A DNA stretch of 27,579 nt from Mycobacterium syngnathidarum (GTDB lineage: Bacteria; Actinomycetota; Actinomycetes; Mycobacteriales; Mycobacteriaceae), in contig NZ_MLCL01000050.1 in NCBI RefSeq assembly GCF_001942625.1, positions 1 to 27,579 on the forward strand. The letters run 5' to 3'. Below, in pieces: positions 9,666 to 27,579 of this stretch; position 1 is the first letter of the stretch; each line of letters starts with the position of its first letter. The position numbers and the translations under genes are program-made. The notes beneath the pieces were generated by a model. It was not told where the DNA came from, made no database searches, and saw only the letters and a list, made by a program, of their open reading frames with translations.

Positions 9666-10853
9666 CTATCGCATCTCCCCGGCACCGACGTACGGGTACC
9701 GGCTGGTGAGCAGATTGTCCTCTGCGAACCGGGCGAGCCGGAAATCCGACTCGGGTATCCGCGGGTCGCAGCTGTGCCCCTCGGTCACCAGGTCGGCGAC
9801 CAGCTTGCCGACCGCCGGTGCGATCTTGAAGCCGTGCCCGCTGAATCCGGCTGCCACGATCAGCCCGTCGATACCGGTCGGAGAGATGATCGGGTTCCAG
9901 TCCGGTGTGACGTCGTAGCAGCCGGCGTAGCTGCCGGTGATCGCCGCGTCGTCGAATCCGGGAAACCGGGTGCCCACCTTGTCGACGGTGAGGTCGATGA
10001 AGCCGTCGGTGGCTCGGTTCAGGTAGTCGTCGGGGTCGGCGAGCTCCAGCTCGGTCAGATCGGAATTTCCGAACAGCAACTCTCCGTTGGGTTCTGGCCG
10101 GATGTACTGCAGCGATACCAGGTCGGAGAAGACCGGTACCGGCCCGGTCCGCACCCCGGGTTTGATCGTCACGATCTGCTCGCGGTGCACCCGGATCGGT
10201 ACGTCGACGCCGTAGGGCGCCAAGAACGGTCGGGTCCACACCCCGGTGGTGACGACGACGGTGCCTGCCGAGATGCGGGTGCCGTCGGCCAGTTCGACCC
10301 CGATGACCCGGGCCCCGTCGAGCGTCAGCCCGGTCACGTTGGTGCCCTGGTGGATTCGGACCCCGGCTGCCCTGGCCGTCACCGCGAAGGCCTGCGCGGT
10401 CTGGTAGGCGTCGCCGTGGCCGCCGCGCGGCTCCCAGCCGAAGGCCGCGAACGGTTCCAGGTCGGCCCACGGCCACAGCTTTGCCACGTCGGTGGCGTCG
10501 ATCTCCTCGGTCTGCACGCCGACCTCGCGTTGGGCGGCCAGGCTCTTGCGCAGGTTGTCGACGTTCGGTTCACCGACGCCGACGACATAGCCGGTCTGCC
10601 GGAACCCGATGTCGGTGCCGAAGTACTGCTCGGCTTTCTCGAACACTTCCAGGCCGACTGTGGCCATCGCGGCCAGGGAGCTGACTCCGTAGTGGCAGCG
10701 CACGATGCCGCTGGATTTCCCGGTCATCCCGGAGCCGACGGTATTGCGTTCCAGGACAGTCACATCGGTGACGTCGCGCTGGCTGAGCGCCCAGGCCACC
10801 GCCGTGCCCTCCAGCCCGCCGCCGACGATGACGACATCCGCGGTGGTGCTCAC
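9666..10853 (-). CDS. DAO-family FAD oxidoreductase (sarcosine oxidase beta/MgdA-like)
   Basis: This 395-residue flavoprotein has an N-terminal Rossmann dinucleotide site VVIVGGGLEGTAVAWALS (about residues 7-24), an E/R at the end of the second beta strand, and GLIVAAGFSGHGFKIAPAVG near the C-terminus. These are the DAO superfamily hallmarks shared by sarcosine oxidase beta subunit, glycine oxidase and N-methylglutamate dehydrogenase subunit A. It starts at GTG10853, overlapping the upstream stop by GTGA, so it is coupled to the glutamate synthase-like gene. From this context I infer oxidation of the secondary amine of an N-alkylglutamate, releasing glutamate and an aldehyde. No soxD, soxA or soxG homologues accompany it, unlike the four-subunit MgdABCD. 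Confidence 0.85.
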   Translation of the reverse strand: MSTTADVVIVGGGLEGTAVAWALSQRDVTDVTVLERNTVGSGMTGKSSGIVRCHYGVSSLAAMATVGLEVFEKAEQYFGTDIGFRQTGYVVGVGEPNVDNLRKSLAAQREVGVQTEEIDATDVAKLWPWADLEPFAAFGWEPRGGHGDAYQTAQAFAVTARAAGVRIHQGTNVTGLTLDGARVIGVELADGTRISAGTVVVTTGVWTRPFLAPYGVDVPIRVHREQIVTIKPGVRTGPVPVFSDLVSLQYIRPEPNGELLFGNSDLTELELADPDDYLNRATDGFIDLTVDKVGTRFPGFDDAAITGSYAGCYDVTPDWNPIISPTGIDGLIVAAGFSGHGFKIAPAVGKLVADLVTEGHSCDPRIPESDFRLARFAEDNLLTSRYPYVGAGEMR

Positions 10854-12142
10854 TGGCCCGGAATCCAGTTCGTACCGGCCAGCGGAACCCGGGCCATCGC
10901 AGCCGCCTCGATGGTCACCGCCACCAGGTCCTCGGGCTCCAGGTGGCAGACGTGGGCCTTGCCGCAGGCCCGGGCGATCGTCTGGGCCTCCATGGTCAGC
11001 ACCCGCAAATAATTGGCCAGCCGTCGCCCGCCTTCGATGGGGTCGAAGCGCGCCGCCAGGTCGGGGTCCTGGGTGGTGATACCGGCCGGATCGCGGCCGT
11101 CCTGGAAGTCGTCGTAGAAACCGGCTGCGCTACCGAGCTTCTCGTACTCTGCGGCGTAGCGGGGATGGTTGTCGCCCAGTGCGATCAGCGCGGCAGTGCC
11201 GATCGCGACGGCATCGGCACCGAGCGCGAGTGCCTTGGCGACATCGGCGCCGGTGCGGATACCGCCGCTCACGATCAATTGGACCTGTCTGTGAACCCCC
11301 AGCTCCTGCAATGCCTGTACGGCTTGGGGCACCGCAGCCAGGGTCGGGATGCCGACGTGTTCGATGAATACCTCCTGGGTGGCGGCCGTGCCGCCCTGCA
11401 TCCCGTCGACCACCACCACGTCGGCGCCGGCGTGCACGGCGAGCTTCACGTCGTAGTAGGTGCGGGTGGCCCCGACCTTGACGTAGATCGGCTTCTCCCA
11501 GTCGGTGATCTCCCGCAGCTCGTTGATCTTGATGGTCAGGTCGTCGGGCCCGGTCCAGTCCGGGTGCCGGCACGCGCTGCGCTGGTCGATACCCTCGGGC
11601 AAGGTGCGCATCTGCGCCACCCGCGGGGAGATCTTCTGCCCCAACAGCATTCCACCGCCACCGGGTTTCGCACCCTGGCCGAGCACCACCTCGATGGCGT
11701 CGGCCTTGCGCAGGTCGTCGGGGTTCATCCCGTACCGCGAGGGCAGGTACTGGTACACCAGGTGCTTGCTCTGCCCCCGCTCCTCGGGCGTCATCCCGCC
11801 GTCGCCGGTGGTGGTCGAGGTGCCCGCTTCGCTGGCCCCGCGGCCCAGGGCCTCCTTGGCCGGCCCGGACAGCGCGCCGAAGCTCATGCCCGCGATGGTG
11901 ACCGGGATATCCAGGTGCAGTGGGTGTTTAGCGTGCCGGTTGCCGAGCACCACGTCAGTGCCGCAGCGTTCCCGGTAGCCTTCCAAGGGGTAGCGCGACA
12001 TGGATGCGCCAAGGAACAGCAGATCGTCGAAGTGGGGCAGGCGGCGTTTGGCGCCCCAGCCGCGGATGTCGTAGATGCCGGTCTCGGCGGCGCGTTGGAT
12101 GTCTGCGATCGTGGATCGATTGAAAGTGGCGGATTCACGCAT
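10850..12142 (-). CDS. Glutamate synthase FMN domain protein (GltB2/MgsC/GlxD-like)
   Basis: This 430-residue protein corresponds to the central FMN-binding (alpha/beta)8 synthase domain of glutamate synthase. Supporting segments are IAGMSFGALSGPAKEALGRG, GQGAKPGGGG, KVGATRTYYDVK, VVDGMQGGTAATQEVF and SGGIRTGADVAKALALGADA, which form the FMN and phosphate loops. ACGKAHVC near the C-terminus retains two cysteines spaced as in the iron-sulfur loop of GltS. In the N-methylglutamate pathway this subunit (MgsC) carries out the synthase chemistry on an amine donor and a keto acid. The start overlaps the preceding stop by one base (TGATG). It is part of a four-protein set split from what is one polypeptide in GltB. 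Confidence 0.9.
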   Translation of the reverse strand: MRESATFNRSTIADIQRAAETGIYDIRGWGAKRRLPHFDDLLFLGASMSRYPLEGYRERCGTDVVLGNRHAKHPLHLDIPVTIAGMSFGALSGPAKEALGRGASEAGTSTTTGDGGMTPEERGQSKHLVYQYLPSRYGMNPDDLRKADAIEVVLGQGAKPGGGGMLLGQKISPRVAQMRTLPEGIDQRSACRHPDWTGPDDLTIKINELREITDWEKPIYVKVGATRTYYDVKLAVHAGADVVVVDGMQGGTAATQEVFIEHVGIPTLAAVPQAVQALQELGVHRQVQLIVSGGIRTGADVAKALALGADAVAIGTAALIALGDNHPRYAAEYEKLGSAAGFYDDFQDGRDPAGITTQDPDLAARFDPIEGGRRLANYLRVLTMEAQTIARACGKAHVCHLEPEDLVAVTIEAAAMARVPLAGTNWIPGQ

Positions 12143-12840
12143 CAGTAGGCACTCGCATTGTCGACGTGGAAGTGGTAGAGGTTCCGGGCCGAGCCGTAGC
12201 GGGTATAGGCCGCGGTGTCGTCGTCGCTGAAGCCACTGGCCGCCAACAACTCCGCGAGTTCGGCATGGTGTTCGGGACGCATCGGCTTGGCGACGCAGTC
12301 CGCACCGAGTGAGGCCACTTCGCCGCGCACGTAGATGCGCGCCTCGTAGATCGAATCGCCCAGCGCCTCGCCGGCGTCGCCGCGCACCACGAGCCGCCCG
12401 GCCTGCGCCATGAACGCGCTCATGTGGCCGATGCTGCCGCCGACCACGATGTCCACGCCCTTCATCGAGATGCCGCAGCGCGCGGCGGCGTCCCCCTCGA
12501 TGATCAGCAGCCCGCCGTGTGCGGTCGCGCCCGCGGACTGCGAGGCATTGCCTGTGACGCGCACCGTGCCGCTCATCATGTTCTCGGCCACCCCGGTCCC
12601 GGCGTTGCCGTTGATGGTCACCTCGGCGAGCTGGTTCATCCCGGCGGCGTAGTAGCCGACGTGGCCCTCGATGGTGACCCGCACCGGGGTGTTGAGGCCG
12701 ACGGCCACGTTGTGCGCGCCGTCGGGGTGGGCGATGACGTGGTCGCCTTCGATATCCGGCTGGTGCAGCGCGGCGTTGACCTCACGCAACGGTGTTGTGC
12801 GCAGGTCGAATCCAACGAGCGTGGCTGCTATCTGGTCCAT
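12142..12840 (-). CDS. Glutamate synthase beta-helix domain protein (GltB3/MgsB/GlxC-like)
   Basis: This 232-residue protein is built of glycine-rich repeats (GHVGYYAAGMNQLAEVTING, GNAGTGVAENMMSGTVRVTG, GDAAARCGISMKGVDIVVGG and similar). They form the right-handed beta-helix of the GXGXG domain at the C-terminus of glutamate synthase. As a separate protein it matches GlxC/MgsB, the structural subunit that links the amidotransferase and FMN subunits. I start it at ATG12840, which has GGAGGTGG upstream and lies 13 bases inside the end of the amidotransferase gene. The open frame continues to 12870 but without homology. Confidence 0.88.
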   Translation of the reverse strand: MDQIAATLVGFDLRTTPLREVNAALHQPDIEGDHVIAHPDGAHNVAVGLNTPVRVTIEGHVGYYAAGMNQLAEVTINGNAGTGVAENMMSGTVRVTGNASQSAGATAHGGLLIIEGDAAARCGISMKGVDIVVGGSIGHMSAFMAQAGRLVVRGDAGEALGDSIYEARIYVRGEVASLGADCVAKPMRPEHHAELAELLAASGFSDDDTAAYTRYGSARNLYHFHVDNASAY

Positions 12841-13697
12841 GCGTAGACCACCTCCGGCTCCGGTTCCCAAATACGTGCCTGCTCGACCCCGGGTAGCCCA
12901 GCCAGGGCGCGGTACTCGCTGGCCATCGCCACCCAGTCGGCGGTTTCGGCGATCACCGCGGGCTTGCAGGCGATGGCGTCGCGCACCACCGCGAACGAGT
13001 CGTGATCGGAGACCAGCAGGGTGTAGAAGCCGTCAAACGTCGCGCACAGTTCCTTGAGTGCCGTGGCCACGTCACGGCCGGCAGCCAGTTGTTCGGCCAC
13101 GAACCGGGCGCCCACCTCGGTGTCGTTCTCGCTGTCGAACTCCACCCCGGCTCGGCGTAGTTCGCGGCGGATGGTGGCGTGGTTGGCGAAAGATCCGTTG
13201 TGTACCAGGCACTGTCCGGGGCCGACGGTGTAGGGGTGGCAGCCCGACGGCGTCACCGCCGATTCGGTGGCCATTCGGGTATGTCCGACACCTTGCCACC
13301 CCTGGGCTTTGGATAGGCCCCACGCCTCGGTCAGGGCGCGGGGGTGGCCCACCCCTTTGAGGACTGCCAGATCGGGACCGAACCCGGAGATCAGCGCGGT
13401 GGGGTAGGCCGCCCGCACCAGGTCCAGCAGTTCCTCGGATTCCATGTCGGCCGACAGCAGGTAGGTCGAATCGACTTGCACCACATCGATATCCGGGCCC
13501 AGGTCGGGCCTGCCAGGGACATCGGTCACCGACACACAGCCCTGCCCGTATGGTGACCATTCCGGGTCTCCGTAAACCGCGATGCCCGCCGAGTCGGCGC
13601 CGCGGTCGGACATCTCGCCCAACATCGCGGCGAGTAGTTCGCCAAGGCGCGGGTACAGCTCAGGTGTGCGCAGGTGTAGACCCACGATCCCGCACAT
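12828..13697 (-). CDS. Class II glutamine amidotransferase (GltB1/MgsA/GlxB-like)
   Basis: This 289-residue N-terminal-nucleophile amidotransferase starts MCGIVGLHLR. Cys2 becomes the N-terminal nucleophile after Met removal. The glutamine-binding motifs RGADSAG, GVGHTRMATES and CLVHNGSFANHATIRREL are all present. The frame is open upstream to 14096, but the start must be 13697 because Cys2 has to follow it; AGGGAG lies eight bases ahead. In glutamate synthase this domain makes ammonia from glutamine. In the N-methylglutamate system (MgsA) it releases methylamine from gamma-glutamylmethylamide. It lies 14 bp after glnT and overlaps the next gene. Confidence 0.92.
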   Translation of the reverse strand: MCGIVGLHLRTPELYPRLGELLAAMLGEMSDRGADSAGIAVYGDPEWSPYGQGCVSVTDVPGRPDLGPDIDVVQVDSTYLLSADMESEELLDLVRAAYPTALISGFGPDLAVLKGVGHPRALTEAWGLSKAQGWQGVGHTRMATESAVTPSGCHPYTVGPGQCLVHNGSFANHATIRRELRRAGVEFDSENDTEVGARFVAEQLAAGRDVATALKELCATFDGFYTLLVSDHDSFAVVRDAIACKPAVIAETADWVAMASEYRALAGLPGVEQARIWEPEPEVVYAWTR

Positions 13698-13711
13698 GTG
13701 TTGTCTCCCTT

Positions 13712-15016
13712 CTAGAACGCCGTCAGGTAGTGGTCGATCTCCCACGGCGTGACGGTGCCGTGGTAGGCGAAGAACTCCTCGCGTTTGACGTCGGCGAAGT
13801 AGGAGGCGACACCGTCGCCGGCCACGTCGAGCACGCCGGTGACGATCGGATCGGTCTCCAGCGATTCGATCGCGTGCAGCAGGGTGGGTGGCAGCGCCGC
13901 CGGTCCCTGGGCGCCCACCGCTCCCGGATCGAGGCTGCGTTTGACGCCGTCGAGCCCGGCGCCAACGGCCGCGGCGATCGCCAGATACGGATTGGCCGAG
14001 CCGTCGCCGCCGCGCAACTCGATACGTTGACTGTCGGGCACCCGGATGTAGTGGGTGCGGTCGTTGCCGCCGTAGCTGGGTTTGCGCGGTGCCCACGACG
14101 CGCCCGACGCGGTCGAGGTAGCACCGGTTCGCTTGTAGGAGTTGACGGTTGGGGCGACGACGGACTGCAGCGCACAGGCGTGGTCGAGGATGCCGCCGAT
14201 GAACGCGTACGCGGTTTCGGACAGTCCGAGGCCTCGCTCATCGGCATCGCCGGGAAACACCGGCGTCCCGGCGCTGGTCAGCGACAGGTGCAGGTGCAGG
14301 CCGCTGCCGGTGCGGTCGCGGAACGGCTTGGGCATGAAGGTGGCCACCATGTCGCGTTCGGCGGCGATCATCGACAGCAGGTAGCGCAGGGTGATCACCC
14401 GGTCGGCGGTGGTCAACGCGTCGGAGAACTCGAAGTTCTGCTCGAACTGCCCATTGCCGTCCTCGTGATCGTTGGCGTAGTTGGACCAGCCGAGGGTGTT
14501 CATCGCCGTCGAGATCGCCGTGAGGTGCTCGTACATGCGGGTGACGCCGCGCGCGTCGTAACAGGGTTGGGCCGCGGTGTCGGCCGCGTCGGCGGTGGCG
14601 AGAACGCCATCGGCGGTGCGCCGCAACAGGAAGTACTCGACCTCGGCGCCCACCCAGGCTTCGAACCCGGAGTCGGCGGCACGCTGGATCAGGCCCTTGA
14701 GGATGACCCGAGGCGCATAGGGCCACGGTGTGCCACCGACGTGGGGGTCGCAGTGCACCAGGGCCAGGCCCTCCTTGATGAACGGGATGGGGGTGAAGGA
14801 GGCCGGATCGGGCATCGCGATCAAGTCGGGGTCCTTGGGTTCCTGGCCCATGGCACCGACGGCGTAGCCGGCGAAACCGACGCCGTCGGTGGCCAGGAGC
14901 TCGACCGATTCAACGGGAACCAGCTTGGCGCAGGGCTTTCCGCGCAGATCCACGAACAGCGCAAGGATGAACTTGGTGCCGGATTGTTCGGCGAGGGTGG
15001 CGAGATCGGAGGGCAT
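13712..15016 (-). CDS. glnT: Type III glutamine synthetase / gamma-glutamylamide synthetase-like
   Basis: This 434-residue ligase of the glutamine synthetase fold is probably the dodecameric GlnT/GmaS kind. It attaches ammonia or an alkylamine to the gamma carboxyl of glutamate with ATP. Visible motifs include GAEVEYFLLRR (catalytic Glu), NDHEDGNGQFEQNF, GSGLHLHLSL (ATP/metal His), PTVNSYKRTG (ammonium/glutamate loop), RTHYIRVPD and NPYLAIAAAVGAGLDG. The adenylylation segment of type I enzymes is missing. Because it is followed by the three glutamate synthase-like subunits and a sarcosine-oxidase-like gene, gamma-glutamylmethylamide synthetase is the most likely role. A purely ammonium-using role cannot be excluded. 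It has its own promoter and leads the operon. Confidence 0.9.
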   Translation of the reverse strand: MPSDLATLAEQSGTKFILALFVDLRGKPCAKLVPVESVELLATDGVGFAGYAVGAMGQEPKDPDLIAMPDPASFTPIPFIKEGLALVHCDPHVGGTPWPYAPRVILKGLIQRAADSGFEAWVGAEVEYFLLRRTADGVLATADAADTAAQPCYDARGVTRMYEHLTAISTAMNTLGWSNYANDHEDGNGQFEQNFEFSDALTTADRVITLRYLLSMIAAERDMVATFMPKPFRDRTGSGLHLHLSLTSAGTPVFPGDADERGLGLSETAYAFIGGILDHACALQSVVAPTVNSYKRTGATSTASGASWAPRKPSYGGNDRTHYIRVPDSQRIELRGGDGSANPYLAIAAAVGAGLDGVKRSLDPGAVGAQGPAALPPTLLHAIESLETDPIVTGVLDVAGDGVASYFADVKREEFFAYHGTVTPWEIDHYLTAF

Positions 15017-15149: not shown

Positions 15150-16403
15150 TCAGGCGAATTCGAGCTCGTAGGCCGAATCCCGGTGGAACGTGGTGTCGAT
15201 ACCCTTCTCCTCTTCCTCGGCGGAGATGCGGATGCCCATGGTCTTCTTGAGCACGTACGCGATGGCGAATGCCACGGCGAAGGAGTAGAGCATCACCGCC
15301 CCGGCTGCGACGGCCTGGCGCCACAACTGGTCGATGCCGCCGCCGTAGAACAGGCCGTTGGTGGCATTCGGCATGCTTTCGCTGGCGAAGAAGCCGACGA
15401 GCAGGGTGCCGACCACGCCGCCGACGAGGTGCACGCCGACCACGTCGAGTGAGTCGTCATAGCCGAGCTTCTCCTTGAAGCCCACAGCGTAGACGCAGAT
15501 CGCCCCGGCGATGCCACCGACGAAGATCGCGCCGATCGGCGTGACCGCACCGCAGGCCGGAGTGATGGCGACCAGCCCGGTGATCGCGCCCGACGCCGCG
15601 CCCACACCGGTGACGTGGCCGGTCTTGTACTTCTCGACTGCCAGCCAGGCCAGCACCGCCGCGCAGGTGGCGACGAACGTGGTGACCATGACGATGGCCG
15701 CGGAATTGCCTGCGGCCAGGGCGGACCCGCCGTTGAAGGCGTACCAGCCGGCCCACAGCATGCCGGCGCCCAGCAGGGTCAGTGGAACGTTGTGCGGCTT
15801 GCGCAGCTGGCCGAACATGGCCGACTTGCCCAGCACGATGGCGACGGCCAGGGCGGCGGCTCCGGCATTGATGTGCACCGCGGTGCCGCCGGCGAAGTCG
15901 ATGGCGTGCAGTTTGTTGGCGATCCAGCCGCCGACCGAGTTTTCGGTGACCACGCCGTCGAAGGCGAACACCCAGTGCGCGACGGGGAAGTACACCAGCA
16001 CAGCCCAGACGGCGGCGAAGATCATCCAGGCGCCGAACTTCATCCGGTCGGCGACCGCGCCCGAGATCAGTGCCACGGTGATGGCCGCGAACAGGGCCTG
16101 GAATATGGAGAACAAACTGATCGGCAGCCCGGCGACGGTGGTCATCGGCTCCATCAGGTCTTTCATGCCGGCGAATTCGGTGATGCTGCCGACGAATCCG
16201 CCGTAGGACGTACCGAACACCATGGAGAACCCGAACAGCACCCACAGCACACCGACCAGGGCGACTGCGCCGAACGTCATCATCATCATGTTCGTCGAGC
16301 TCTTGACCGAGACCATGCCGCCGTAGAACAGGGCAAGACCCGGGATCATCAGCGTGAGGCCGATGATGCAACACAGCATGAATGCCGTGGTTCCTGTATC
16401 CAT
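15150..16403 (-). CDS. amt: Ammonium transporter, Amt/MEP/Rh family
   Basis: This 417-residue integral membrane protein has about 11 spans and conducts ammonium as a trimer. The Amt signature [19 protein letters not shown] includes the conserved Asp and the first pore His. The second pore His is in [35 protein letters not shown] is the first-to-second span motif. I chose ATG16403 over ATG16409 because AGGAG is six bases ahead of it and directly abuts the other. The C-terminal tail is acidic and about 30 residues long. No PII gene (glnK/glnB) follows, so this is a second, stand-alone type of Amt. It supplies ammonium to the adjacent glnT system or recaptures what leaks. Confidence 0.95.
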
Positions 16404-16457
16404 CAACATCTCCTGGGGGTGGCGGCCCGGACGGGCCGATCACCGGCAGTAGATGAT

Positions 16458-19295: not shown

Positions 19296-20660
19296 TTACT
19301 CTTCGTCTGCGCCGGGCAGAGTACGTTGTCGCACACCAGGGGTGCCGAGTGTGCTGGCAAGCCACGGCAGGGCGGCGGCAAACGCCGCCCCGGCAGAGTC
19401 GAAGCTGTGCGTGCCTTTGTATCCGACCACTGAGCATTCGACGTTGTAACCGCTCAGCAGGGCGCACAGCTTGTTCGCGTTGGCGGCGTGCTCCTCGGAG
19501 AAGGTGTCCCAGTCGCCGATCGTCTCCTCGGAGGGCGGCGTCATGCTGGGGTCGCGATGGACGGTCGGGGTGTCTTCCGCGACACCGAGCCACGCAGCCA
19601 TGTCTTTGTACGGGCCGTGCCGGGTGATGATCGTCCTGGGATCGAAGGCTTCCCACGCTGCTTGGTCGCCGCCGAACAACCTCGCGACGGTTTGGTCTTT
19701 CGTACCCGCATTGGGGCCGAGGGTCCCGTCGAGCCAGACGATGGCGCTGAACATCTCGGGGTTGCGAACCGCGGTGGTCAGCGAGCAGGTAGCGCCAGAG
19801 GACCAGCCGGCCAGCCCCCAGTTCTCGGCTTTCGGGCTGACTCCGAAGCGGGAGATCATGTACGGCACCACATCTTTGGTCAGATGGGCGGCGGCATTGC
19901 CGCGTAGGCCGTCGACGCACTCTGTGTCGTTGTTGAATTTCCCTGAGGTGTCCGGGAATACGATGATCGGCGCGTTGCCGTGATGTAGTGCCGCAAAGCT
20001 GTCCAACGTCTCCAGCGCATCGGTCGACTGCAACCAGTCGTTCGGGTGATTGAACTCGCCGCCCATCATGATGACCGCGGGCAGTTTGGGGGGAGGGCTG
20101 CTGGAGAACCAGGCGGGTGGTAGATAAACGGTCTCGGTCCGGTGCGCGAAACCCGATGCATCCCCAGGGATGTTCACTCGCACCACGGTGCCGCGGGTTG
20201 GCACCCCACCTGTTTGCTGAAGTGCCGCAAGCTGGGCTTCATCGATCCATTGGTCGGGTTCCGAGTGCGTCAACCGGAGCCAGGCTGCACGTACTGTCGG
20301 GAAATAGCCGGTCGCCGTGTTGAGGGCCGCTAAGCCGCAGACGACCACCATCACCACGGCGAGCACAGAGATCGACCGGCGCCACCATGGGCTGCCGGAC
20401 CAACCGGCGATCAACACCGTCGCGGCGAAGCCGAACATCGCCGTCCAGAACACGGCACCGAACGAAATGGCCTCTGCGGACCAGCCCTGGTCCCTCACGA
20501 ACAGCCGGGCTGCTGCGGCGAGACCCACACCTACGAGCACTGCGGCGAGCAGCCACCGCCGCATCCACTCCTGGGATCGTCCGCGACCGATTGCGACCAC
20601 GATCGTGACCAGTGCCACCAGTTGCAGAGTGATCGGGATCAGACCGCTGGTCAGTGACAT
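19296..20660 (-). CDS. Membrane-anchored esterase of the antigen 85/esterase D type
   Basis: This 454-residue protein starts with four predicted membrane spans (about residues 5-25, 37-54, 66-87 and 97-116). A periplasmic alpha/beta hydrolase domain of the PF00756 type follows. The nucleophile elbow is GWSSG with Ser287, the terminal histidine is His417 in GTHSFDSAG, and MMGGEFNHPNDW near residue 199 would form the oxyanion region. The family includes mycolyltransferases and related wall-lipid esterases, so an acyl transfer or hydrolysis role at the envelope is likely; the substrate is unknown. A degraded paralogue of both ends of this gene lies at 23415-23597. The 255-bp gap upstream, to the divergent sugar transferase, must hold both promoters. 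I see no certain elements in it. Confidence 0.82.
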   Translation of the reverse strand: MSLTSGLIPITLQLVALVTIVVAIGRGRSQEWMRRWLLAAVLVGVGLAAAARLFVRDQGWSAEAISFGAVFWTAMFGFAATVLIAGWSGSPWWRRSISVLAVVMVVVCGLAALNTATGYFPTVRAAWLRLTHSEPDQWIDEAQLAALQQTGGVPTRGTVVRVNIPGDASGFAHRTETVYLPPAWFSSSPPPKLPAVIMMGGEFNHPNDWLQSTDALETLDSFAALHHGNAPIIVFPDTSGKFNNDTECVDGLRGNAAAHLTKDVVPYMISRFGVSPKAENWGLAGWSSGATCSLTTAVRNPEMFSAIVWLDGTLGPNAGTKDQTVARLFGGDQAAWEAFDPRTIITRHGPYKDMAAWLGVAEDTPTVHRDPSMTPPSEETIGDWDTFSEEHAANANKLCALLSGYNVECSVVGYKGTHSFDSAGAAFAAALPWLASTLGTPGVRQRTLPGADEE

Positions 20661-20915: not shown

Positions 20916-22424
20916 GTGAATGAGCCTCGGACTACGTCGGTTGGCGCGAAAACAGGTACCTTCGCCGACCCGGGCGCCGCACCCGCGGCGGTGCAGGCGC
21001 AAGCTCAGCGGTGGAGATCCTCATATCGTCGTCGTGTCCTGCTCGTCGACGCGTTCGTCCTCGCGGTGGTTGTCGCGTTCGCCGAATGGATCGGAACGGC
21101 TCAGGCGCATCGCCATTTCGCCAGCTTTACCACCGCAACTGCTTTTTCAGTCGGAATATATATCGGTTGGTTGATCGCGCTCGGATATGTGCATTCGCGC
21201 GATCTCACGCTGGTGGGGCAGGAGGCCGAGGAATACCGGCTCGTTGCCGCGGCGACCGGATGGACATTCGCGATTGCCGCGGCCGCCGAAGTCTTCCTCG
21301 ACATGCCGATTTCGCGTATCCAATTCGGGGTCACCTTCGGCCTCGGGTTCATCGGCCTGTTCGTGGCTCGGCATCTGCTGCGCGCGGACGTGCGTCGCCG
21401 TCGAAAGCGGGGAAAATACCTCTCCCGAGTCGTCGCATTGGGCGGTCTCGATGCCGCGCGCATCTTGTCCGAGTATTTTCAGCGTTCGCCCAGCGCGGGA
21501 TACCAGCTCGTCGGCGTCCTCATGCCGGATGCCGGCGACATGATCGGGCAGGACGTCGAGATGCCCACCGGTCCCGTTCCCGTCCTCGGGTTCAACCATG
21601 ACAGCGAGATCGAGGCGGCCGTGCAAGCGGCCGGCGCGGACTCACTGGCGGCGGTGTATGCGGGGGACTTCGGGCCTGAGAAGGTCAAATTCCTCGCGTG
21701 GCGTATGCAGGCGATCAACACCGGACTCATCGTCGTCCCGGGTTTGACAGAGGTCGCGACGCACCGGCTGCAGCTGCGCCCGCTGGAGAATCTGCCGCTC
21801 TTCGTGATCGAAGCACCAACCCACGACAGAGTCTCGACGATCACCAAACGAATCCTCGATCTCACCCTCGGCGTGATCGGAACCATCATCGCGCTTCCGG
21901 TTATCGCATTGGCTGGGCTGGCGATCAAGCTCGATGACCGGGGCCCGGTGTTCTATCGGCAGGAGCGAGTCGGCCTCGACCAGAAGACGTTCAGGATCTT
22001 CAAGCTGAGAACCATGCATGTCGGCACCGACAAATTGCCGAAAACCAATGAGCAGCATGCCGAGAGCATGTTCAACAAGCGTTCGTCTTCGTCCAGCGTC
22101 ACCAAGGTCGGAAAATTCCTGCGAGCCACCAGCATCGACGAGTTGCCCCAGTTGTTCAACGTGCTGGGCGGTTCGATGAGCGTCGTGGGGCCGCGCCCCC
22201 TAGTACCGGGCGAAGCCGGGACGGACGCCGCATTCCTGGAGCACAGAGAGCACGTCAAGCCCGGCATGACGGGATTGTGGCAGGTGTCCGGGCGTTCTGA
22301 TCTCGAGGATAGAGACCGAGTTCGGCTCGATCGGTCCTATGCCGGCAACTGGTCGGTGATCGGGGACCTGGTGATCATCTGGCGCACGATCGGTGCGGTT
22401 CTCAAGCGCAAGGGCGCGTACTGA
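20916..22424 (+). CDS. Polyprenyl-phosphate sugar-1-phosphate transferase (WbaP/WcaJ type)
   Basis: This 502-residue enzyme starts a lipid-linked glycan by moving a sugar-1-phosphate from a nucleotide sugar onto polyprenyl phosphate at the inner membrane. It has four N-terminal spans (about residues 42-60, 75-93, 108-126 and 134-151) and a CoA-binding-like middle domain. The bacterial sugar transferase domain (PF02397) begins with the membrane hairpin LDLTLGVIGTIIALPVIALA, then VFYRQERVGLDQKTFRIFKLRTM, SIDELPQLFNVLGGSMSVVG-PRPL and KPGMTGLWQVSGRS. The GTG at 20916 has GGAG 11 bases upstream. It is complete. The sugar cannot be told from sequence. Its presence suggests a surface glycan pathway, perhaps the acceptor for the neighbouring aminoacyl-carrier module. 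Confidence 0.92.
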   Translation: MNEPRTTSVGAKTGTFADPGAAPAAVQAQAQRWRSSYRRRVLLVDAFVLAVVVAFAEWIGTAQAHRHFASFTTATAFSVGIYIGWLIALGYVHSRDLTLVGQEAEEYRLVAAATGWTFAIAAAAEVFLDMPISRIQFGVTFGLGFIGLFVARHLLRADVRRRRKRGKYLSRVVALGGLDAARILSEYFQRSPSAGYQLVGVLMPDAGDMIGQDVEMPTGPVPVLGFNHDSEIEAAVQAAGADSLAAVYAGDFGPEKVKFLAWRMQAINTGLIVVPGLTEVATHRLQLRPLENLPLFVIEAPTHDRVSTITKRILDLTLGVIGTIIALPVIALAGLAIKLDDRGPVFYRQERVGLDQKTFRIFKLRTMHVGTDKLPKTNEQHAESMFNKRSSSSSVTKVGKFLRATSIDELPQLFNVLGGSMSVVGPRPLVPGEAGTDAAFLEHREHVKPGMTGLWQVSGRSDLEDRDRVRLDRSYAGNWSVIGDLVIIWRTIGAVLKRKGAY

Positions 22425-22431
22425 CGCGCGG

Positions 22432-23379
22432 CTACAAGCCCATCGCGGTACGCACCTGGCCCGGCCACGAGGACGGATCCAATCCGTGAGTTCGCAGTAG
22501 TCCCAGGGCAATTCGCTCCATACCGAAACCCACGCAGGCGCTGTGTGCGACACCGCCATCGGTGGTGCGCAAGTTGAATGTCTGACCGAAGTGGTCTCGG
22601 TGGCAATTGGCCGACACCACGGCAGTGCCGTCATGCAGGTCGCCGTACAGCCGCACCAGCAGCTCGGTCTTCAGCTCCTCTTCACGCTGGTTTGCGGCCA
22701 GCATTTTGCCAACCCGGCCGAAGAAGGGGTCGTTGGCCGGAGCGGGCCGCGCGTCCAGGCCGAGCGCGGTCAGCACCGCCATGCCGTGGTCCACCCAGCT
22801 GTCACGATGTGTCTGCGCTTGTTCGGGGGTCCCGACCAGAACGTACTCGTGCATCCGAAACGCCTGCATCCGGGCCGGATCGATGGACGGCTCGTGCCGG
22901 AAGCAGTAACCGTAGATATCCATCAGCACACCGCCGTCCGGCAGATTCGACGGTAGCGTCGCATAGCTCGGGTGGCACGCCGCCGAAACCAGCATGGTGC
23001 CAGCGGAATTCAGATGTCCATCCCACGGCAGCCCGGCATCCCGGTCTGCCAACAGTGCCCGGTGCTCGGCGTTTCCGCCGGTGAACGTCGAGATGGCCCC
23101 GGTCAGGTCCGGGAAGGACGCGATGTAGTCGGTCTTCTCGAACTGATCGCGCGGGAAGACGGGTGGGAACCGAAGGACCTTCGCGCGGTCACCATGAACC
23201 TCGGTGCCTTTGCGTCGGACCGCGTAATCGACACCGTCGACGATATCCTCGAAAACCGCTCCACGGCCGTACAGGCCGTCGATGCCCATCGGCACGAGCA
23301 AGCCGGTGGCGACGAGTTCATCGCGGAACTGCCGGCGTGCGGATTCGAGTTGTGTATCCACGTCGCGAGCTTCGGTCAT
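22432..23379 (-). CDS. Amino acid:[carrier protein] ligase (seryl-tRNA synthetase-like)
   Basis: This 315-residue class II aminoacyl-tRNA synthetase core has no tRNA-binding domain. The enzymes of this type characterised from Bradyrhizobium activate glycine or alanine and load it on the phosphopantetheine of a small carrier protein. The zinc ligands expected of the atypical SerRS lineage are Cys135 (SAACHPSY), Glu178 (RMHEYV) and Cys282 (HSACVGFG). Motif 2 is CFRHEPS (159-165) and motif 3 is GFGMERIALGLL (285-296). The carrier and pantetheinyl transferase genes lie 1.5 kb away (24907-25571), on the opposite strand. It follows the lipase and the esterase remnant on the minus strand, probably as one old operon. 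Which amino acid it uses is unknown. Confidence 0.88.
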   Translation of the reverse strand: MTEARDVDTQLESARRQFRDELVATGLLVPMGIDGLYGRGAVFEDIVDGVDYAVRRKGTEVHGDRAKVLRFPPVFPRDQFEKTDYIASFPDLTGAISTFTGGNAEHRALLADRDAGLPWDGHLNSAGTMLVSAACHPSYATLPSNLPDGGVLMDIYGYCFRHEPSIDPARMQAFRMHEYVLVGTPEQAQTHRDSWVDHGMAVLTALGLDARPAPANDPFFGRVGKMLAANQREEELKTELLVRLYGDLHDGTAVVSANCHRDHFGQTFNLRTTDGGVAHSACVGFGMERIALGLLRTHGLDPSSWPGQVRTAMGL

Positions 23380-23414
23380 CCGCCAACCCTATCGTCGGCA
23401 GGCCGGTACCGGAC

Positions 23415-23597
23415 CTACTTCTCGCCGGTCCCCGGCAGTGAGCGTTCCCGCACCTCGGGCGTGCCCAAGCGCACTGGCGAGCCAGGGGAGCGCTACGGCG
23501 AACGCGGTGCCTGCAGATTGGAAGACGTGCTTCCGACCACCGAGCATTCGACGTTGTAGCCGCTTGGGATCAGTCCATCGGTCAGTGACAGGTTCAT
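23415..23597 (-). pseudogene. Internally deleted, frameshifted remnant of an esterase gene
   Basis: The minus strand starts ATG at 23597, overlapping the lipase stop by ATGA, and reads MNLSLTDGLIP, like MSLTSGLIP at the start of the 19296-20660 esterase. It then jumps straight to SGYNVECSVVG, which matches that esterase near residue 402. A frameshift follows (stop at 23495-23493 in the first frame). The other frames continue FQSAGTAFAVALPWLASALG and then TPEVRERSLPGTGEK, ending TAG at 23415. About 1.2 kb of the middle, including the catalytic serine, is gone, and the histidine region is damaged. It was once the second gene of an operon with the lipase. Confidence 0.85.
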
Positions 23598-24787
23598 CTG
23601 GGTCGGCTCTCGCAGTCGTTGGATGCCGGCACCGATCTGAATCGGTCGTTGATCCACGCCAGCGTCGCGGCTGAATCGGGTCGCGGCTCGGGTTGCCGTT
23701 GGACGGTGATCGTGTCGCCCATCTTGCAGGCGGCCTCTACCGCGCGATCGGTCCAGGCGGCCGGGCTGAGCGGCTCGTCACCGCTGTAGCTGACCAGCAT
23801 CGGCGCCTGCGCCGGCCCCTGCGGCAGGTTGGTCTTCTGGATGAAACCCCGCAGGGTGTTCATCGCATCCGCGTCGGCAGGCCGCAGGTCGCCGGCCGGA
23901 ACTTGTCCTGCCACCTGCCGGGCAGTGGGGGCCGGTTGACAGCCGAGCAGGGTATTCCATTGTTGGGTCGCGGCACCGCGTCGGTACTCGTCGAGGTTGA
24001 CGACTTCGGGGTACTCGGCGTGGAGGGCCGCTACGAAGCGGGCAATTGCCACCTTCTGGTCGTCGTTCAATGTGCCGTTCTGGGCGGCCTCAGCAAGCCC
24101 GTTGAGGTCGGAAATCGGTGAGATGCTCACCGAACCCACGAAATTGCCATCGAAGTTGTTGTAGTCGACGGCAAGTTCGTTGGCGGCCCATGCGGCCTGA
24201 CCACCCTCGTTGATCCCGATTGCCAGCCATGACGTCGATGACTGGGGCTCCTCGGTATGGGCCGCCTGTGCAGCGTCGATCATGTTGTATCCGCCGGTCG
24301 TGGAGTCGAGATACGGGTGATAGGTGTCGTCGTAGTTAGTGTCGGCCGTCGGCTTGCCGAGACCTTGGAAATCCGGAACCGCCACGACGTAACCCGCCTT
24401 CAGCAACGCCACAACCGTCGGTGCCAGGTCGAGCAGGGTGGGTGAGAGGGAAGGGGCGCAGTCCGCGGTTGTGCCGGTGACCGGACGACCCACCACTACG
24501 ATCGGGAATCCGTCCTCGGGGGCCTCGGTCTTCGGTGTGAAAACCGATGTATTGAAATGGGTTTCACCGTCGTAGATACCTGATCGGGAAATGTGGGTGA
24601 CGAGGTTCATGGCCGCGGCGGCATCACGGACGGAATCGGCAACGTTCGTCAGCGGAACGGAGCCGAGATGGTGGGGGTCGGCTGCGTCACCCGAACCGGC
24701 CTTCTCGGCGTCGGTCTCGGCGTGCGATCCGCAACCGGTGAGTGCCAGCATGGCTGCGGTGATCATTGCCAGACTGCGACGCATCAT
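23594..24787 (-). CDS. Lipoprotein of the secretory lipase (LIP) family lacking the nucleophile serine
   Basis: This 397-residue protein starts at ATG24787 after GGGGGAG. ATG24784 is nearly as good, and TTG24790 is less likely. Residues 1-19 are a lipoprotein signal peptide with lipobox LTGC (Cys19), so it should be anchored on the outer face of the membrane. The rest resembles PF03583 lipases: GFPIVVVGRPVTGTTADCAPS, GYVVAVPDFQGLG, GGYNMIDAAQAA and a C-terminal VSYSGDEPLSPAAWTDRA. At the nucleophile elbow, where GxSxGG is expected, it reads GINEGGQAA with Asn193. It may therefore be a binding protein or have an altered mechanism. The terminal histidine is also not clear. It is divergent from the carrier gene. 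Confidence 0.82.
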   Translation of the reverse strand: MMRRSLAMITAAMLALTGCGSHAETDAEKAGSGDAADPHHLGSVPLTNVADSVRDAAAAMNLVTHISRSGIYDGETHFNTSVFTPKTEAPEDGFPIVVVGRPVTGTTADCAPSLSPTLLDLAPTVVALLKAGYVVAVPDFQGLGKPTADTNYDDTYHPYLDSTTGGYNMIDAAQAAHTEEPQSSTSWLAIGINEGGQAAWAANELAVDYNNFDGNFVGSVSISPISDLNGLAEAAQNGTLNDDQKVAIARFVAALHAEYPEVVNLDEYRRGAATQQWNTLLGCQPAPTARQVAGQVPAGDLRPADADAMNTLRGFIQKTNLPQGPAQAPMLVSYSGDEPLSPAAWTDRAVEAACKMGDTITVQRQPEPRPDSAATLAWINDRFRSVPASNDCESRPR

Positions 24788-24893
24788 CAACTCCCCCTCG
24801 GGTGGTGTGCGGTTTTAGCCTAGTCAGGCCGGCGGCTGCGCTTCGCCGAATTCCTCATGGGAAATCGCCGGCACATTGCCTTCGGCCGCGTCT

Positions 24894-24899
24894 TATGCT
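24894..24899 (+). promoter_or_regulatory. Probable -10 element of the carrier protein gene
   Basis: TATGCT fits TANNNT and lies seven bases before the ATG at 24907, with only a weak GGCGAG between. This predicts a leaderless message for the carrier, pantetheinyl transferase and hydrolase genes. No convincing -35 element is seen. Confidence 0.45.
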
Positions 24900-24906
24900 G
24901 GCGAGC

Positions 24907-25143
24907 ATGCGGGAAGCAATTCAGAAGGCATTGGCGGATCACGGAAGAATGTCGGTCGATCCGACCGGTGTCGATGCCGACGCTGACCTCTACGAACTCG
25001 GCCTGACCTCTCATGCGTCGGTCAACGTCATGCTGGCCCTAGAGGACGAGTTCGACATCGAATTCCCGGACGAGGCGCTGAAAAAATCGACTTTTGCTTC
25101 GATCAACAACATCGAAGCCGCCATCAACGGCCTTACCAAGTAG
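24907..25143 (+). CDS. Acyl carrier protein, probable aminoacyl carrier
   Basis: This 78-residue four-helix carrier protein has its phosphopantetheine attachment serine as Ser35 in LGLTSHASV, with TSH in place of the usual DSL. The following helix VNVMLALEDEFDIEFPDEAL is typical of ACPs. The FPDEAL...STFASI pattern near the C-terminus recalls the small carriers paired with amino acid:carrier ligases. It should be loaded by the PPTase 23 bp downstream and charged by the ligase at 22432-23379. I chose ATG24907 because homology starts there; the longer open frame upstream is non-coding. It is not the fatty-acid synthase ACP, whose gene context would be different. Confidence 0.88.
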   Translation: MREAIQKALADHGRMSVDPTGVDADADLYELGLTSHASVNVMLALEDEFDIEFPDEALKKSTFASINNIEAAINGLTK

Positions 25144-25166
25144 CACGTGTCGGTGCCGGAAGGCCC

Positions 25167-25571
25167 ATGAACCCGCCTGAGGTCCCGCTACCAGGTCACC
25201 GCGTCCGCGTCGGGTGCGATGTGGTGGCCCTCGACGACATCGCGAACTCGCTGTCGTCTTTCGGGGACCGGTTTCTGACCAGGATCTACACCGCTGACGA
25301 GGTCGCTACCTGCAGCGGCACGAATCGGCTGGCACGGTTGGCCGCGCGCTTCGCCGCCAAAGAGGCGGCCATAAAGGCGTTCGCACAGCCGGACTCCTCA
25401 TTTGTCCCGAATGAGATCGAGGTCGTCACCTCGGATCACCTCCCAACTTTGCGGTTTACCGGTTCGGCGGCGCGGTTGGCGGCCGAGCAACGGTGGCTGC
25501 AGGTCTCTGTCTCGCTCACGCACGCCGACTGTCACGCGGCGGCCGTGGTGGTGGTGGTTTGCGCAGGGTAG
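25167..25571 (+). CDS. AcpS-type 4'-phosphopantetheinyl transferase
   Basis: This 134-residue enzyme moves phosphopantetheine from CoA to a carrier serine. The two family motifs are VGCDVVALDDI (GxDxV-type metal Asp near residue 18) and RLAARFAAKEAAIKAFA (F-AAKEA-xKA, with metal Glu and Lys, about residues 64-80). A later VSLTHADCHAAAVVV matches the (V/I)SxSHxxxxA strand. The length is normal for AcpS. It lies between the carrier and the tandem hydrolase on the same strand, which argues that it is dedicated to this carrier and is additional to the housekeeping AcpS. The start ATG25167 follows GGAAGG. Confidence 0.9.
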   Translation: MNPPEVPLPGHRVRVGCDVVALDDIANSLSSFGDRFLTRIYTADEVATCSGTNRLARLAARFAAKEAAIKAFAQPDSSFVPNEIEVVTSDHLPTLRFTGSAARLAAEQRWLQVSVSLTHADCHAAAVVVVVCAG

Positions 25572-25614
25572 AAGTGGCGGGTATGCGATTTAGCTAAAAT
25601 GGCGGTTTCTATTT

Positions 25615-27408
25615 GTGACAGTCGTGCGCCGAGATGCGAATCTGGTAGAGCGTCGAGCGTTATTGATGGATGACGGGATGGGCACACAGATGGCGGCGGA
25701 ATCGGGTACGCAAGGCGTGCCGACGTGGTTCGGTCCCGAGCAATCGCGTCTTTTCGGCGTTGTGCATGTGCCGGATGGCGGAATTGCCCGGGCCGGCGTG
25801 GTCATCTGCCCGCCGCTCGGCCGTCAGCACCTGGATACCTACCGCGGATTGAAATTGTTGGCGCAACAGTTGTGTGCCAGGGGGTTTGCGGTTCTGCGGT
25901 TCGATTACCGGGGAACTGGGGATTCCACTGGAGCCCAGTGTCTGGACAGCGCCGTGGATGACTACGTCGAGAGCATTCGGACGGCCGTGGGCTATTTGCG
26001 GGCTTGCGGGCTGCAGAGTGTCTCACTGGTCGGCCTGCGGGCGGGCGCGCTGTTGGCAGCGACAGCGGCGCCCTCCATTGACGGCCTGGAAGGCCTGGTC
26101 ATGTGGGACCCGGTCACCGATGGTCGCAGGTACCTGCGCGAACAAAAGGTTCTCTACCAGATGACCGTCGGGGGACAAGAATCCGCCGAGCTGCCGCCCG
26201 AAGCGGACTCGGTGCCACTTCTCGGCCTCACACTCTCGGCGACAGCTGCTGCCGACCTTGGTGCGTTGAAGGTACCGGACGAGGTCGGGGCGACGTCGAT
26301 ACTCGTGTTGAGCCGGCCGGAACTCGCTGGCGACCGCAGGCTGGCCGGCCTGCGCGCGGCGAATAACTGCACAATTCAGGAAATCGCCGGCCAGCCCGAG
26401 TTCGTTGAACCGCCCAGCATCGTGGTCAAGATTCCGATGGATACCCTGGCGATGATCGAGAAATGGCTCGATGCGAATCTCACGTCGGAGACAGTCGCTT
26501 TCCAACCGGCGTTCTCCGACCTTGCAGTGGTCGATGAAATGTCGGACGGCCGAAAGGTCATGGAATCGATCACCGAACTCGGTCCGAGCCGATTGTTCGC
26601 CATCCGAACTGAGCTCGCCGGCGATGGTGCGGGTGGCCCGACCGTGTTGTTCCACAACACCGCGTGCGAGCATCGGGTCGGCTCTGGGCGAATCTGGCCG
26701 GATACGGCCCGGGATCTGGCCGCTCTTGGCGTGACTGCGGTCCGCTACGACCGTCGGGGGGTTGGCGACACCGGCGTCGCTACCGAGGATTTCCCGTGGA
26801 TGCACTCGCCGGTGGCCAAAGCCGATGTGACTGACGCGGTCGACGCCCTGGCGGTACCGGCAGAGCGGTTGATCATGACCGGAATATGTTCGGGCGCTTG
26901 GAATTCCGCCTATGGGGGTTTGGAGCGCGGAGCGAAATTGGTGATCCTGCTGAACATTCTGCTGTATTCATTGCGGCGTTCCGAAGGTGGATCGGAACGA
27001 ATCGCGCAGGTGACTGACGCCGTTTCTGGCGATGAGGGCACCGGCGATGAAGACACTGAGACGAGGCGGGTTTGGGGCCTGGTCAAGCAGGGGCTGCGAA
27101 ACTGGCTGCCGTATAGGGGTTGGTTGCTCCTCGGCCGGCTCGGTTATACGCAGGCACCGGAGGTGCTCCTGAGGGCGCTCGGCAAGGGCCGGGTGCCGAC
27201 TGAACTCGTGCTGTCACCGATGGATTTCGATTGGTACGTCGGACATCGTGGCCCGATCGGGGCCAAACGGTTGGCACGTCGCGGGTGGGCTCCGAAGCTG
27301 ACGCAGGCACCTGCCGGCGACCATGCAGTGCTGCATCGCGGTTTGCAGAACTTCATCCGCGAGTACCTGCTGGAGGCTACGCGACGGGAGTTCGCCGACC
27401 AGCTGTAA
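25615..27408 (+). CDS. Tandem alpha/beta hydrolase fusion (two S33-like domains)
   Basis: This 597-residue protein has two hydrolase domains. Domain 1 (about 37-290) has CPPLGRQHLDTYRGLKLLAQ, FDYRGTGDS and the elbow GLRAG, where Arg142 replaces the nucleophile serine. Domain 2 (about 325-590) has YDRRGVGDTG and the elbow GICSG, with Cys425 at the nucleophile position, and a late GDHAVLH histidine. These two elbows resemble those of hydrolases 2 and 1 that sit beside carrier proteins in exosortase A/exopolysaccharide clusters; here they are fused. Domain 2 could act as a thioesterase or transferase on the loaded carrier. GTG25615 is used, with TAAAAT at 25595-25600 as a possible -10; ATG25666, 25678 and 25690 are alternatives. 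Confidence 0.8.
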   Translation: MTVVRRDANLVERRALLMDDGMGTQMAAESGTQGVPTWFGPEQSRLFGVVHVPDGGIARAGVVICPPLGRQHLDTYRGLKLLAQQLCARGFAVLRFDYRGTGDSTGAQCLDSAVDDYVESIRTAVGYLRACGLQSVSLVGLRAGALLAATAAPSIDGLEGLVMWDPVTDGRRYLREQKVLYQMTVGGQESAELPPEADSVPLLGLTLSATAAADLGALKVPDEVGATSILVLSRPELAGDRRLAGLRAANNCTIQEIAGQPEFVEPPSIVVKIPMDTLAMIEKWLDANLTSETVAFQPAFSDLAVVDEMSDGRKVMESITELGPSRLFAIRTELAGDGAGGPTVLFHNTACEHRVGSGRIWPDTARDLAALGVTAVRYDRRGVGDTGVATEDFPWMHSPVAKADVTDAVDALAVPAERLIMTGICSGAWNSAYGGLERGAKLVILLNILLYSLRRSEGGSERIAQVTDAVSGDEGTGDEDTETRRVWGLVKQGLRNWLPYRGWLLLGRLGYTQAPEVLLRALGKGRVPTELVLSPMDFDWYVGHRGPIGAKRLARRGWAPKLTQAPAGDHAVLHRGLQNFIREYLLEATRREFADQL

Positions 27409-27468
27409 TGGCCGGCTCTCAGATCGTCGTGAACAGGGCACACATCGCTGCGCCTGAGTTAGGACATT

Positions 27469-27483
27469 TGGCTTAGTAAGCCA
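27469..27483. repeat. Short perfect palindrome at the start of the terminal gene's 3' flank
   Basis: TGGCTTA-G-TAAGCCA is a perfect inverted repeat with 7-bp arms. It overlaps the stop codon of the minus-strand partial gene. It could be a weak terminator or part of the end of an insertion sequence. The rest of 27409-27468 shows nothing recognisable. Confidence 0.5.
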
Positions 27484-27579
27484 CTTTGATGCCGAGGCCG
27501 GCCAAGATCTCACGTTGGGGTTCTGGGATTTCTGGTGGGAAGGCCTGGCTGGCATCGTTGATGACGATGGTCGCTGAGC
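27473..27579 (-). CDS. C-terminal part of an unidentified protein, possibly a transposase
   Basis: On the minus strand a frame enters from the window edge and ends with TAA at 27475-27473. The last residues include VINDASQAFPPEIPEPQREI and end in GLGIKVAY. The tail resembles the C-termini of some DDE transposases, in which a short hydrophobic strand is followed by a helix with an ILxxLGI ending. About 35 residues are too few for a safe assignment. The gene converges on the tandem hydrolase. Confidence 0.4.
   Translation of the reverse strand, partial: SATIVINDASQAFPPEIPEPQREILAGLGIKVAY

Follow-up and report, generated by a model that had tools for sequence, protein, structure and literature searches.

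A putative aminoacyl-donor arm of exopolysaccharide assembly in Mycobacterium syngnathidarum and related bacteria

Main finding

Here we describe a small gene module in a stretch of 27,579 nucleotides from Mycobacterium syngnathidarum (contig NZ_MLCL01000050.1, positions 1 to 27,579; hereafter the window), which encodes an amino acid:[carrier protein] ligase, a small carrier protein, a 4'-phosphopantetheinyl transferase (PPTase) and a fused double alpha/beta hydrolase. We consider it probable that this module serves an exopolysaccharide pathway as its aminoacyl-donor arm, by which lipid-linked exopolysaccharide precursors would be aminoacylated in the cytosol. We infer the charging, the amino acid, the acceptor, the transferase and the transfer itself from gene content, conservation, co-occurrence, the glycan-gene neighbourhood and predicted folds. 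The protein families are known; their arrangement and the link to polysaccharide we did not find in the searchable literature. Full-text searches, judged mostly from titles and the opening of abstracts, returned no link of these ligases to polysaccharide, and in a 2022 review the biological role of amino acid:[carrier protein] attachment is called still unknown (PMC9437257). The genes concerned are the following, to which we add a neighbouring polyprenyl-phosphate sugar-1-phosphate transferase (PGT).

20916..22424, plus strand: PGT (PF02397, 200 bits; TIGR03025, 345 bits)
22432..23379, minus strand: amino acid:[carrier protein] ligase, the catalytic core of a class II aminoacyl-tRNA synthetase (aaRS) with the tRNA-binding part absent (NCBIfam PRK07080)
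24907..25143, plus strand: aminoacyl carrier protein with attachment serine S35 in 'LTSHAS' (PRK07081)
25167..25571, plus strand: AcpS-like PPTase (TIGR00556 and PF01648, over cut-off)
25615..27408, plus strand: fused double alpha/beta hydrolase of 597 residues, with two alpha/beta-hydrolase halves

In the pathway that we propose, the PPTase would turn the carrier into its holo form, which is established chemistry for these families. The ligase would then adenylate a small amino acid, which going by the family of the enzyme is probably glycine or alanine, and load it onto the phosphopantetheine thiol of the carrier. From there, the aminoacyl group would be passed to a sugar of a lipid-linked oligosaccharide, which would be assembled by the PGT and glycosyltransferases on the cytosolic face, before export. 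In a fuller operon found in relatives the transferase would most likely be a DUF1839 protein, which has a predicted CcbD-like fold. The type of locus seen in the window is without DUF1839, and for that reason the double hydrolase, via its Cys425, would be the best candidate for transfer there, or else for the release of wrong cargo.

Gene families of the module

With 434 bits, the ligase exceeds the cut-off of 357 set for PRK07080 (amino acid--[acyl-carrier-protein] ligase). It is 315 amino acids long and matches the seryl-tRNA synthetase (SerRS) profile only at positions 306-504 of 518, which means that the tRNA-binding N-terminal domain is absent. Amino acid:[carrier protein] ligases of this kind, Bll0957 and Atu2573, together with their carriers, are reportedly the subject of work by Mocibob et al. 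in 2010 and 2013 (PDB 3MEY, 4H2W). Our ligase is related to Bll0957 and to the 4H2W chain, and its residues C135, E178 and C282, kept in all 85 rows of an alignment, align to positions of Bll0957 that we take to be the Cys/Glu/Cys zinc ligands of the SerRS-like core. Furthermore, the stretch GKMLAANQREEELK resembles the segment in which the 4H2W chain departs from wild-type Bll0957, and this is the segment that, from the 2013 structure paper, we assume to serve carrier recognition. The carrier in turn scores 53.9 bits against the carrier crystallised with the 4H2W chain and 27.6 against the one crystallised with wild-type Bll0957, its best PDB matches being 4h2w_C and 2jq4 (Atu2571). As far as sequence can tell, ligase and carrier of the window fit each other. 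The pair resembles Bll0957/Atu2573 and their carriers in the homology of both proteins, the adjacency of the genes and the conserved positions of the presumed zinc ligands, but differs in that a double hydrolase and polysaccharide genes are associated with it.

The carrier, scanned as frame 24847-25143, scores 95 bits against PRK07081 (cut-off 72), and S35 is present in 83 of 83 rows. The PPTase scores 69.5 bits against TIGR00556, the wider PPTase domain (cut-off 45.35), and falls just below the cut-off of the AcpS holo-ACP synthase family TIGR00516 (53.8 versus 59.8 bits); its residues G16, D18, E66 and K70 are kept in all 46 rows. The preliminary description, made from the letters of the window and its open reading frames, had named a ligase, a carrier with a TSH-type attachment serine, a PPTase and a fused hydrolase in two divergent blocks, all of which is borne out by family scores, coordinates and strands.

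In outline the module recalls the Dlt pathway for D-alanylation of teichoic acids, since in both a small carrier receives an activated amino acid whose destination is, or would be, an envelope polymer. The two are not homologous as systems, however. Dlt uses an ANL-type ligase (DltA) and a membrane acyltransferase (DltB), whereas the ligase of the window is aaRS-derived, and ligase, carrier and hydrolase all look cytosolic. Moreover, the carrier reaches 22.4 bits against the DltC profile PRK05087, well below its cut-off of 68, and no Pfam match to MBOAT (the DltB type) was present among the 24 window proteins scanned, a result for the window to which no genome-wide search was added.

Two types of locus

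We compared 85 loci, 84 of which were fetched in addition to the window, with flanks of up to about 14 kb; one of these (L014) is cut at a contig end, and two (L072 and L074) are nearly identical. A gene for an acyl-CoA-dehydrogenase (ACAD)-like protein is present in 73 of the loci, and was not found in the other 12, the window included. This gene divides the set, since DUF1839 accompanies it in 53 of the 73 loci and a GH2-like gene in 51, versus none of the 12 ACAD-less loci for either. The carrier (72/73 and 11/12) and the double hydrolase (44/73 and 10/12) occur in both types. The window is thus not of the full type: ACAD-like, DUF1839 and GH2-like genes were not found at its locus. Over whole genomes the picture is the same for DUF1839 and for a close ACAD orthologue, each of which is present in all eight full-type genomes and in none of the six genomes of window-type relatives.

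On a tree of the 85 ligases, the label for locus type needs five changes, at least three of which are forced by the starred branches, and eight window-type and seven full-type rows fall within one well-supported mycobacterial group. Its branches are long, and it does not show which way the changes went. The most economical explanation is that ACAD, DUF1839 and GH2 have probably been lost repeatedly as a unit, with ligase, carrier and hydrolase staying behind. Two loci labelled Dehalococcoidia (L072) and Kitasatospora (L017) have ligases nearly identical to those of Dietzia and Williamsia and are probably misassigned; a third, labelled Acidobacteriaceae (L023), groups less closely with Gordonia and is perhaps misassigned as well. 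By eye, the full-type ACAD-like protein (L006:4871-6046 and its orthologues) seemingly misses the catalytic Glu near the C terminus, which we take to be the usual motif, and may therefore do other chemistry.

Co-occurrence across genomes

In a survey of 198 genomes of the genus that contains G004, the genome of locus L004, the carrier was found over its cut-off in 11 genomes, with weaker matches in 10 more, and in none of 14 control genomes. The double hydrolase, called with our A1 profile at E <=1e-30 and with 7 candidates scored per genome, is present in 12 of the 198, including all 11 that have the carrier; in the twelfth (G159) it was found on a contig of 3.9 kb, at whose edge stands a fragment of a PPTase. 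The ligase exceeds its cut-off in eight genomes, all among the 11 carrier genomes, with sub-cut-off matches in three others; the sole control with a match, again below cut-off, is Methanocaldococcus. Fisher tests give p ~3e-17 for carrier and hydrolase and p 1e-11 for ligase and hydrolase, values that are guides only because these tests ignore shared descent and are uncorrected for kinship. Furthermore, all 14 ligase genomes reached via the loci have, at this threshold, exactly one double hydrolase, in 12 of them on the ligase contig and within 14 kb. Carrier and double hydrolase are the tightest pair in the module, and we regard gene content and co-occurrence as solid. The co-occurrence search that the preliminary description had proposed in advance has not refuted its reading: ligase, carrier, PPTase and double hydrolase do occur together, with glycan-assembly genes nearby in the Mycobacteriales and in three of seven proteobacterial loci.

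Glycan genes around the ligase

The PGT gene stands tail to tail with the ligase gene, with a gap of 7 bp. It lies outside the span covered by the preliminary description, which had nonetheless pointed to it as a relevant neighbour, and it is indeed a recurrent one: in 13 of the 14 genomes, a PF02397 gene shares the contig of the ligase at a distance of no more than 22 kb, where 0.31 would be expected given how many such genes each genome has. Distances of 10 kb or less are seen in nine genomes (0.14 expected) and of 3 kb or less in seven (0.04 expected), and in three genomes (G004, G010 and G014) the PF02397 gene near the ligase is the sole one found in the genome.

With a ligase 86-89% identical to those of L001-L004, the window appears close to Mycolicibacterium setense and related isolates. 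On the far side of the hydrolase, L001 encodes GT4 glycosyltransferases and a Wzy-like protein, clusters that are also represented in L002-L004 and L125, and a full-type locus (L012) has Wzy-like and GT4 genes beside its module as well. In several Williamsia loci glycosyltransferases adjoin the module, with no Wzy-like gene in the stretch examined. Between the glycosyltransferase genes a protein of about 317 residues recurs (L001:4005-4958, with cluster members in L002, L004, L012 and L125), which matches no Pfam family and has a single hydrophobic stretch, at its N terminus. Outside the actinobacteria, clear polysaccharide loci surround the module in Cupriavidus metallidurans CH34, Shinella and Burkholderia cenocepacia. 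The preliminary description had left open whether a surface glycan or a lipid receives the aminoacyl group; this neighbourhood favours the glycan and disfavours the lipid.

Relation to biofilm clusters of Burkholderia

The B. cenocepacia locus (L108) begins with a CRP/FNR-like regulator, the carrier, ACAD, ligase, DUF1839, GH2 and a sigma-54/VpsR regulator, after which ManC, two GT4 proteins, Wzc, a GH5-like protein, Wzx, another GT4 protein, the double hydrolase and an export protein follow, with both strands used. These calls rest mostly on Pfam and NCBIfam, those for the regulator, ManC, DUF1839 and GH2 on similarity to other loci. From gene order and domains we infer that this locus is the published BCAM1330-1350 stretch for the Bep polysaccharide, although its interior order differs from the published table. 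In the Bep cluster, berA is BCAM1349 and berB is BCAM1342 (PMC9684580), and Bcam1334 is a TIGR03100 hydrolase (PMC3584217). The homologous cluster of B. pseudomallei is becA-R, 15 of whose 18 genes were recovered in a primary biofilm screen; a mutant of becG, annotated as acyl-CoA dehydrogenase, forms smooth colonies and less biofilm (OD600 0.84 +/- 0.08 versus 1.25 +/- 0.03 for the wild type; PMC5507470).

The Bep and Bec clusters thus share with our loci an operon of the same type, with a double hydrolase in L108 that matches TIGR03100 as Bcam1334 does. They differ in being of the full type and in having dedicated cyclic di-GMP regulators, whereas the window type, here in a mycobacterium, is without ACAD, DUF1839 and GH2. 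Beside a Williamsia locus, proteins with EAL and GGDEF domains are encoded (L015:12678-15353), and by cluster membership also beside other Williamsia loci, which echoes the cyclic di-GMP control of Bep. The earlier suggestion of an undescribed system therefore needs qualifying: ligase and carrier families are biochemically known, and a homologous operon sits inside a published biofilm cluster. What stands is that the published cluster text, in the parts available, does not name this operon as aminoacyl-carrier chemistry.

Candidates for the transfer step

For DUF1839, which in the full type is the candidate transferase, the predicted fold matches CcbD, AziU3 and CtaG, enzymes of antibiotic pathways. 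CcbD is the condensing enzyme of lincosamide synthesis, in which an amino sugar receives the aminoacyl group that a carrier had held. The likeness is one of fold: sequence similarity to these three enzymes is not detectable, a comparison of DUF1839 with solved structures by sequence gave no convincing match, and the window type is without the protein. Residue C39 of DUF1839 is invariant and sits at the start of a helix, and it is a candidate counterpart of the catalytic cysteine of the CcbD type.

For the window type we propose that the double hydrolase is a carrier-dependent acyltransferase or thioesterase. At the nucleophile elbow of its N half stands Arg142, where the nucleophile would be; the C half has a conserved triad of Cys425, Asp537 and His570, with Cys rather than Ser as nucleophile in 51 of 51 non-gap rows. 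Residues 1-30 have a predicted local distance difference test score below 50, and in the model's light the true start may lie further in than 25615. Exosortase A-associated hydrolases (TIGR03100, TIGR03101) are its nearest curated relatives in outline, the N half being closest to hydrolase 2 and the C half matching only hydrolase 1. The window protein differs in that it is fused and reaches under half of the curated cut-offs (91.3 bits versus 202.75 for hydrolase 2, and 77.7 versus 168.45 for hydrolase 1). TIGR03100 gave weak matches, none over cut-off, in nine further genomes or records. A first literature search on these hydrolases gave nothing, and PMC1569441 does not contain the terms hydrolase, ligase or acyl carrier. 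Single-domain relatives of the C half were uninformative, with two proteins at E <=0.001 among 7995 scored candidates, and GrgF is a weak sequence match to this half (E 0.001). Almost all VIA rows of the double hydrolase fall on its N half, so that the C half is barely tested in them.

So does this protein transfer the aminoacyl group, or does it merely release it? For this one step there is a serious competing explanation, to which we would give a little less than an even chance, namely that the double hydrolase acts on the carrier as a thioesterase for editing or recycling, and that an unlinked third enzyme performs glycan transfer in the window type. Carrier and hydrolase occur together even in genomes without the ligase, and full-type genomes retain the hydrolase alongside DUF1839, so that transfer there may not need it. 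Against this stand the Cys nucleophile, which suits transfer at least as well as hydrolysis, and the absence of DUF1839 from all six genomes of window-type relatives, which leaves no other obvious transferase. We therefore regard transferase and thioesterase as about evenly balanced for the double hydrolase of the window type.

A bolder generalisation, which we offer tentatively and would sooner doubt than affirm, is that biofilm or capsule polysaccharide receives a small amino acid before export by a widespread route that is independent of Dlt and is supplied by amino acid:[carrier protein] ligases. In that case DUF1839 would be a CcbD-like aminoacyl-carrier:sugar transferase, and the double hydrolase, with its Cys nucleophile and its Arg-bearing pseudo-hydrolase half, a second carrier-dependent acyltransferase that would suffice alone in the mycobacterial branch.

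Weighing the exopolysaccharide role against alternatives

Several observations weigh against a role in exopolysaccharide assembly. One ligase contig (G011) is without a PGT, and among the proteobacterial loci two (L082 and L083) show no polysaccharide locus, a third (L107) has only a glycosyltransferase at its far edge, and a fourth (L104) has an acyltransferase next to the carrier with other envelope genes further off. The window itself ends just past the hydrolase, and any glycosyltransferases beyond it would go unseen here; a minus-strand frame (27473-27577) ends about 65 bp past the hydrolase, and its last 34 residues look unlike the end of the GT4 protein that follows the hydrolase in L004. 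Three genomes (G031, G064 and G071) have carrier, PPTase and hydrolase but no ligase over cut-off, so that the hydrolase may be no more than a thioesterase there. At the corresponding loci (L121, L122 and L123) no PRK07080 ligase stands beside these genes, and in L123 a PhyH-type dioxygenase adjoins the carrier. In B. pseudomallei, the becG mutant is the mildest of seven tabulated bec mutants, polarity of the insertion is possible, and the biofilm screen missed becF, probably the carrier to judge by gene order, although the library contained it; assignment by order is itself uncertain, because becD is equated with BCAM1349 though becE bears the cyclic-nucleotide-binding annotation (PMC5507470). 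Finally, the published Bep repeat is a neutral tetrasaccharide without an amino acid, although 0.3 M NaOH was used to extract the polysaccharide and NaOD to measure it (PMC7084887). Under such alkaline conditions an ester-linked amino acid would be lost, whereas an amide might survive.

One alternative is that the module makes a small soluble metabolite in a free-standing pathway akin to non-ribosomal peptide synthesis, merely near polysaccharide genes, with the hydrolase as a releasing or proofreading thioesterase. Many natural product pathways do follow a stand-alone logic of activation, carrier and thioesterase, antibiotic pathways are where the enzymes with the fold of DUF1839 act, and several proteobacterial loci show no glycan genes. 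We nevertheless hold this to be unlikely in view of the PGT found close to the ligase in all but one of 14 genomes, the glycan loci of Cupriavidus, Shinella and B. cenocepacia, and the reduced biofilm and smooth colonies described for the becG mutant. Transfer to an envelope lipid, with the lipase-like lipoprotein and the membrane esterase as partners, is highly improbable: both genes adjoin the module in the window and in L004, but relatives among the 84 fetched loci number three for the lipase and one for the esterase, versus 23 for the PGT.

Other features of the window

Around and between the genes of the module lie the following features.

23594..24790, minus strand: lipoprotein-type secretory lipase between ligase and carrier, accessory and unconserved (PF03583, 41 bits)
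about 23418..23564, minus strand: esterase remnant outside the module, a relative of the esterase gene at 19296-20660
24791..24906: divergent intergenic stretch of 116 bp from lipase gene to carrier gene

The lipoprotein and the esterase remnant that the preliminary description had noted on the strand of the ligase are both real. The former has a lipobox-like LTGC, read by eye, and the latter is 77% identical over 22 amino acids to the end of the 19296-20660 esterase. As members of the system, lipase and membrane esterase were rejected on account of the rarity of their relatives in the fetched loci, counts from which the window itself was subtracted. A lipase relative stands at the same position in L004, with a partial match in L125, and in L001-L003 the spacing between ligase and carrier leaves no room for one. 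Elsewhere in the window, a minus-strand run (9666-15016 and 15150-16409) encodes a DAO-type oxidoreductase, glutamate-synthase-like, GXGXG, GATase and glutamine-synthetase-like proteins and an ammonium transporter, and resembles a cluster for amine use of the N-methylglutamate type. Positions 22400-27579 have no near match among 72,556 plasmid records, which gives no sign of a plasmid origin.

Implications

The ligase family has solved structures, and a link to exopolysaccharide in two phyla makes its purpose testable. The family is thereby connected with a biofilm cluster under regulation and with a transferase fold whose substrate is an amino sugar. If the generalisation above is true, the Bep and Bec polysaccharides would carry an amino acid that has been overlooked or removed by alkaline extraction. 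Moreover, if the proposed role of the module is true, an aaRS-derived, cytosolic route would be added to the known ways in which envelope glycans are decorated with amino acids.

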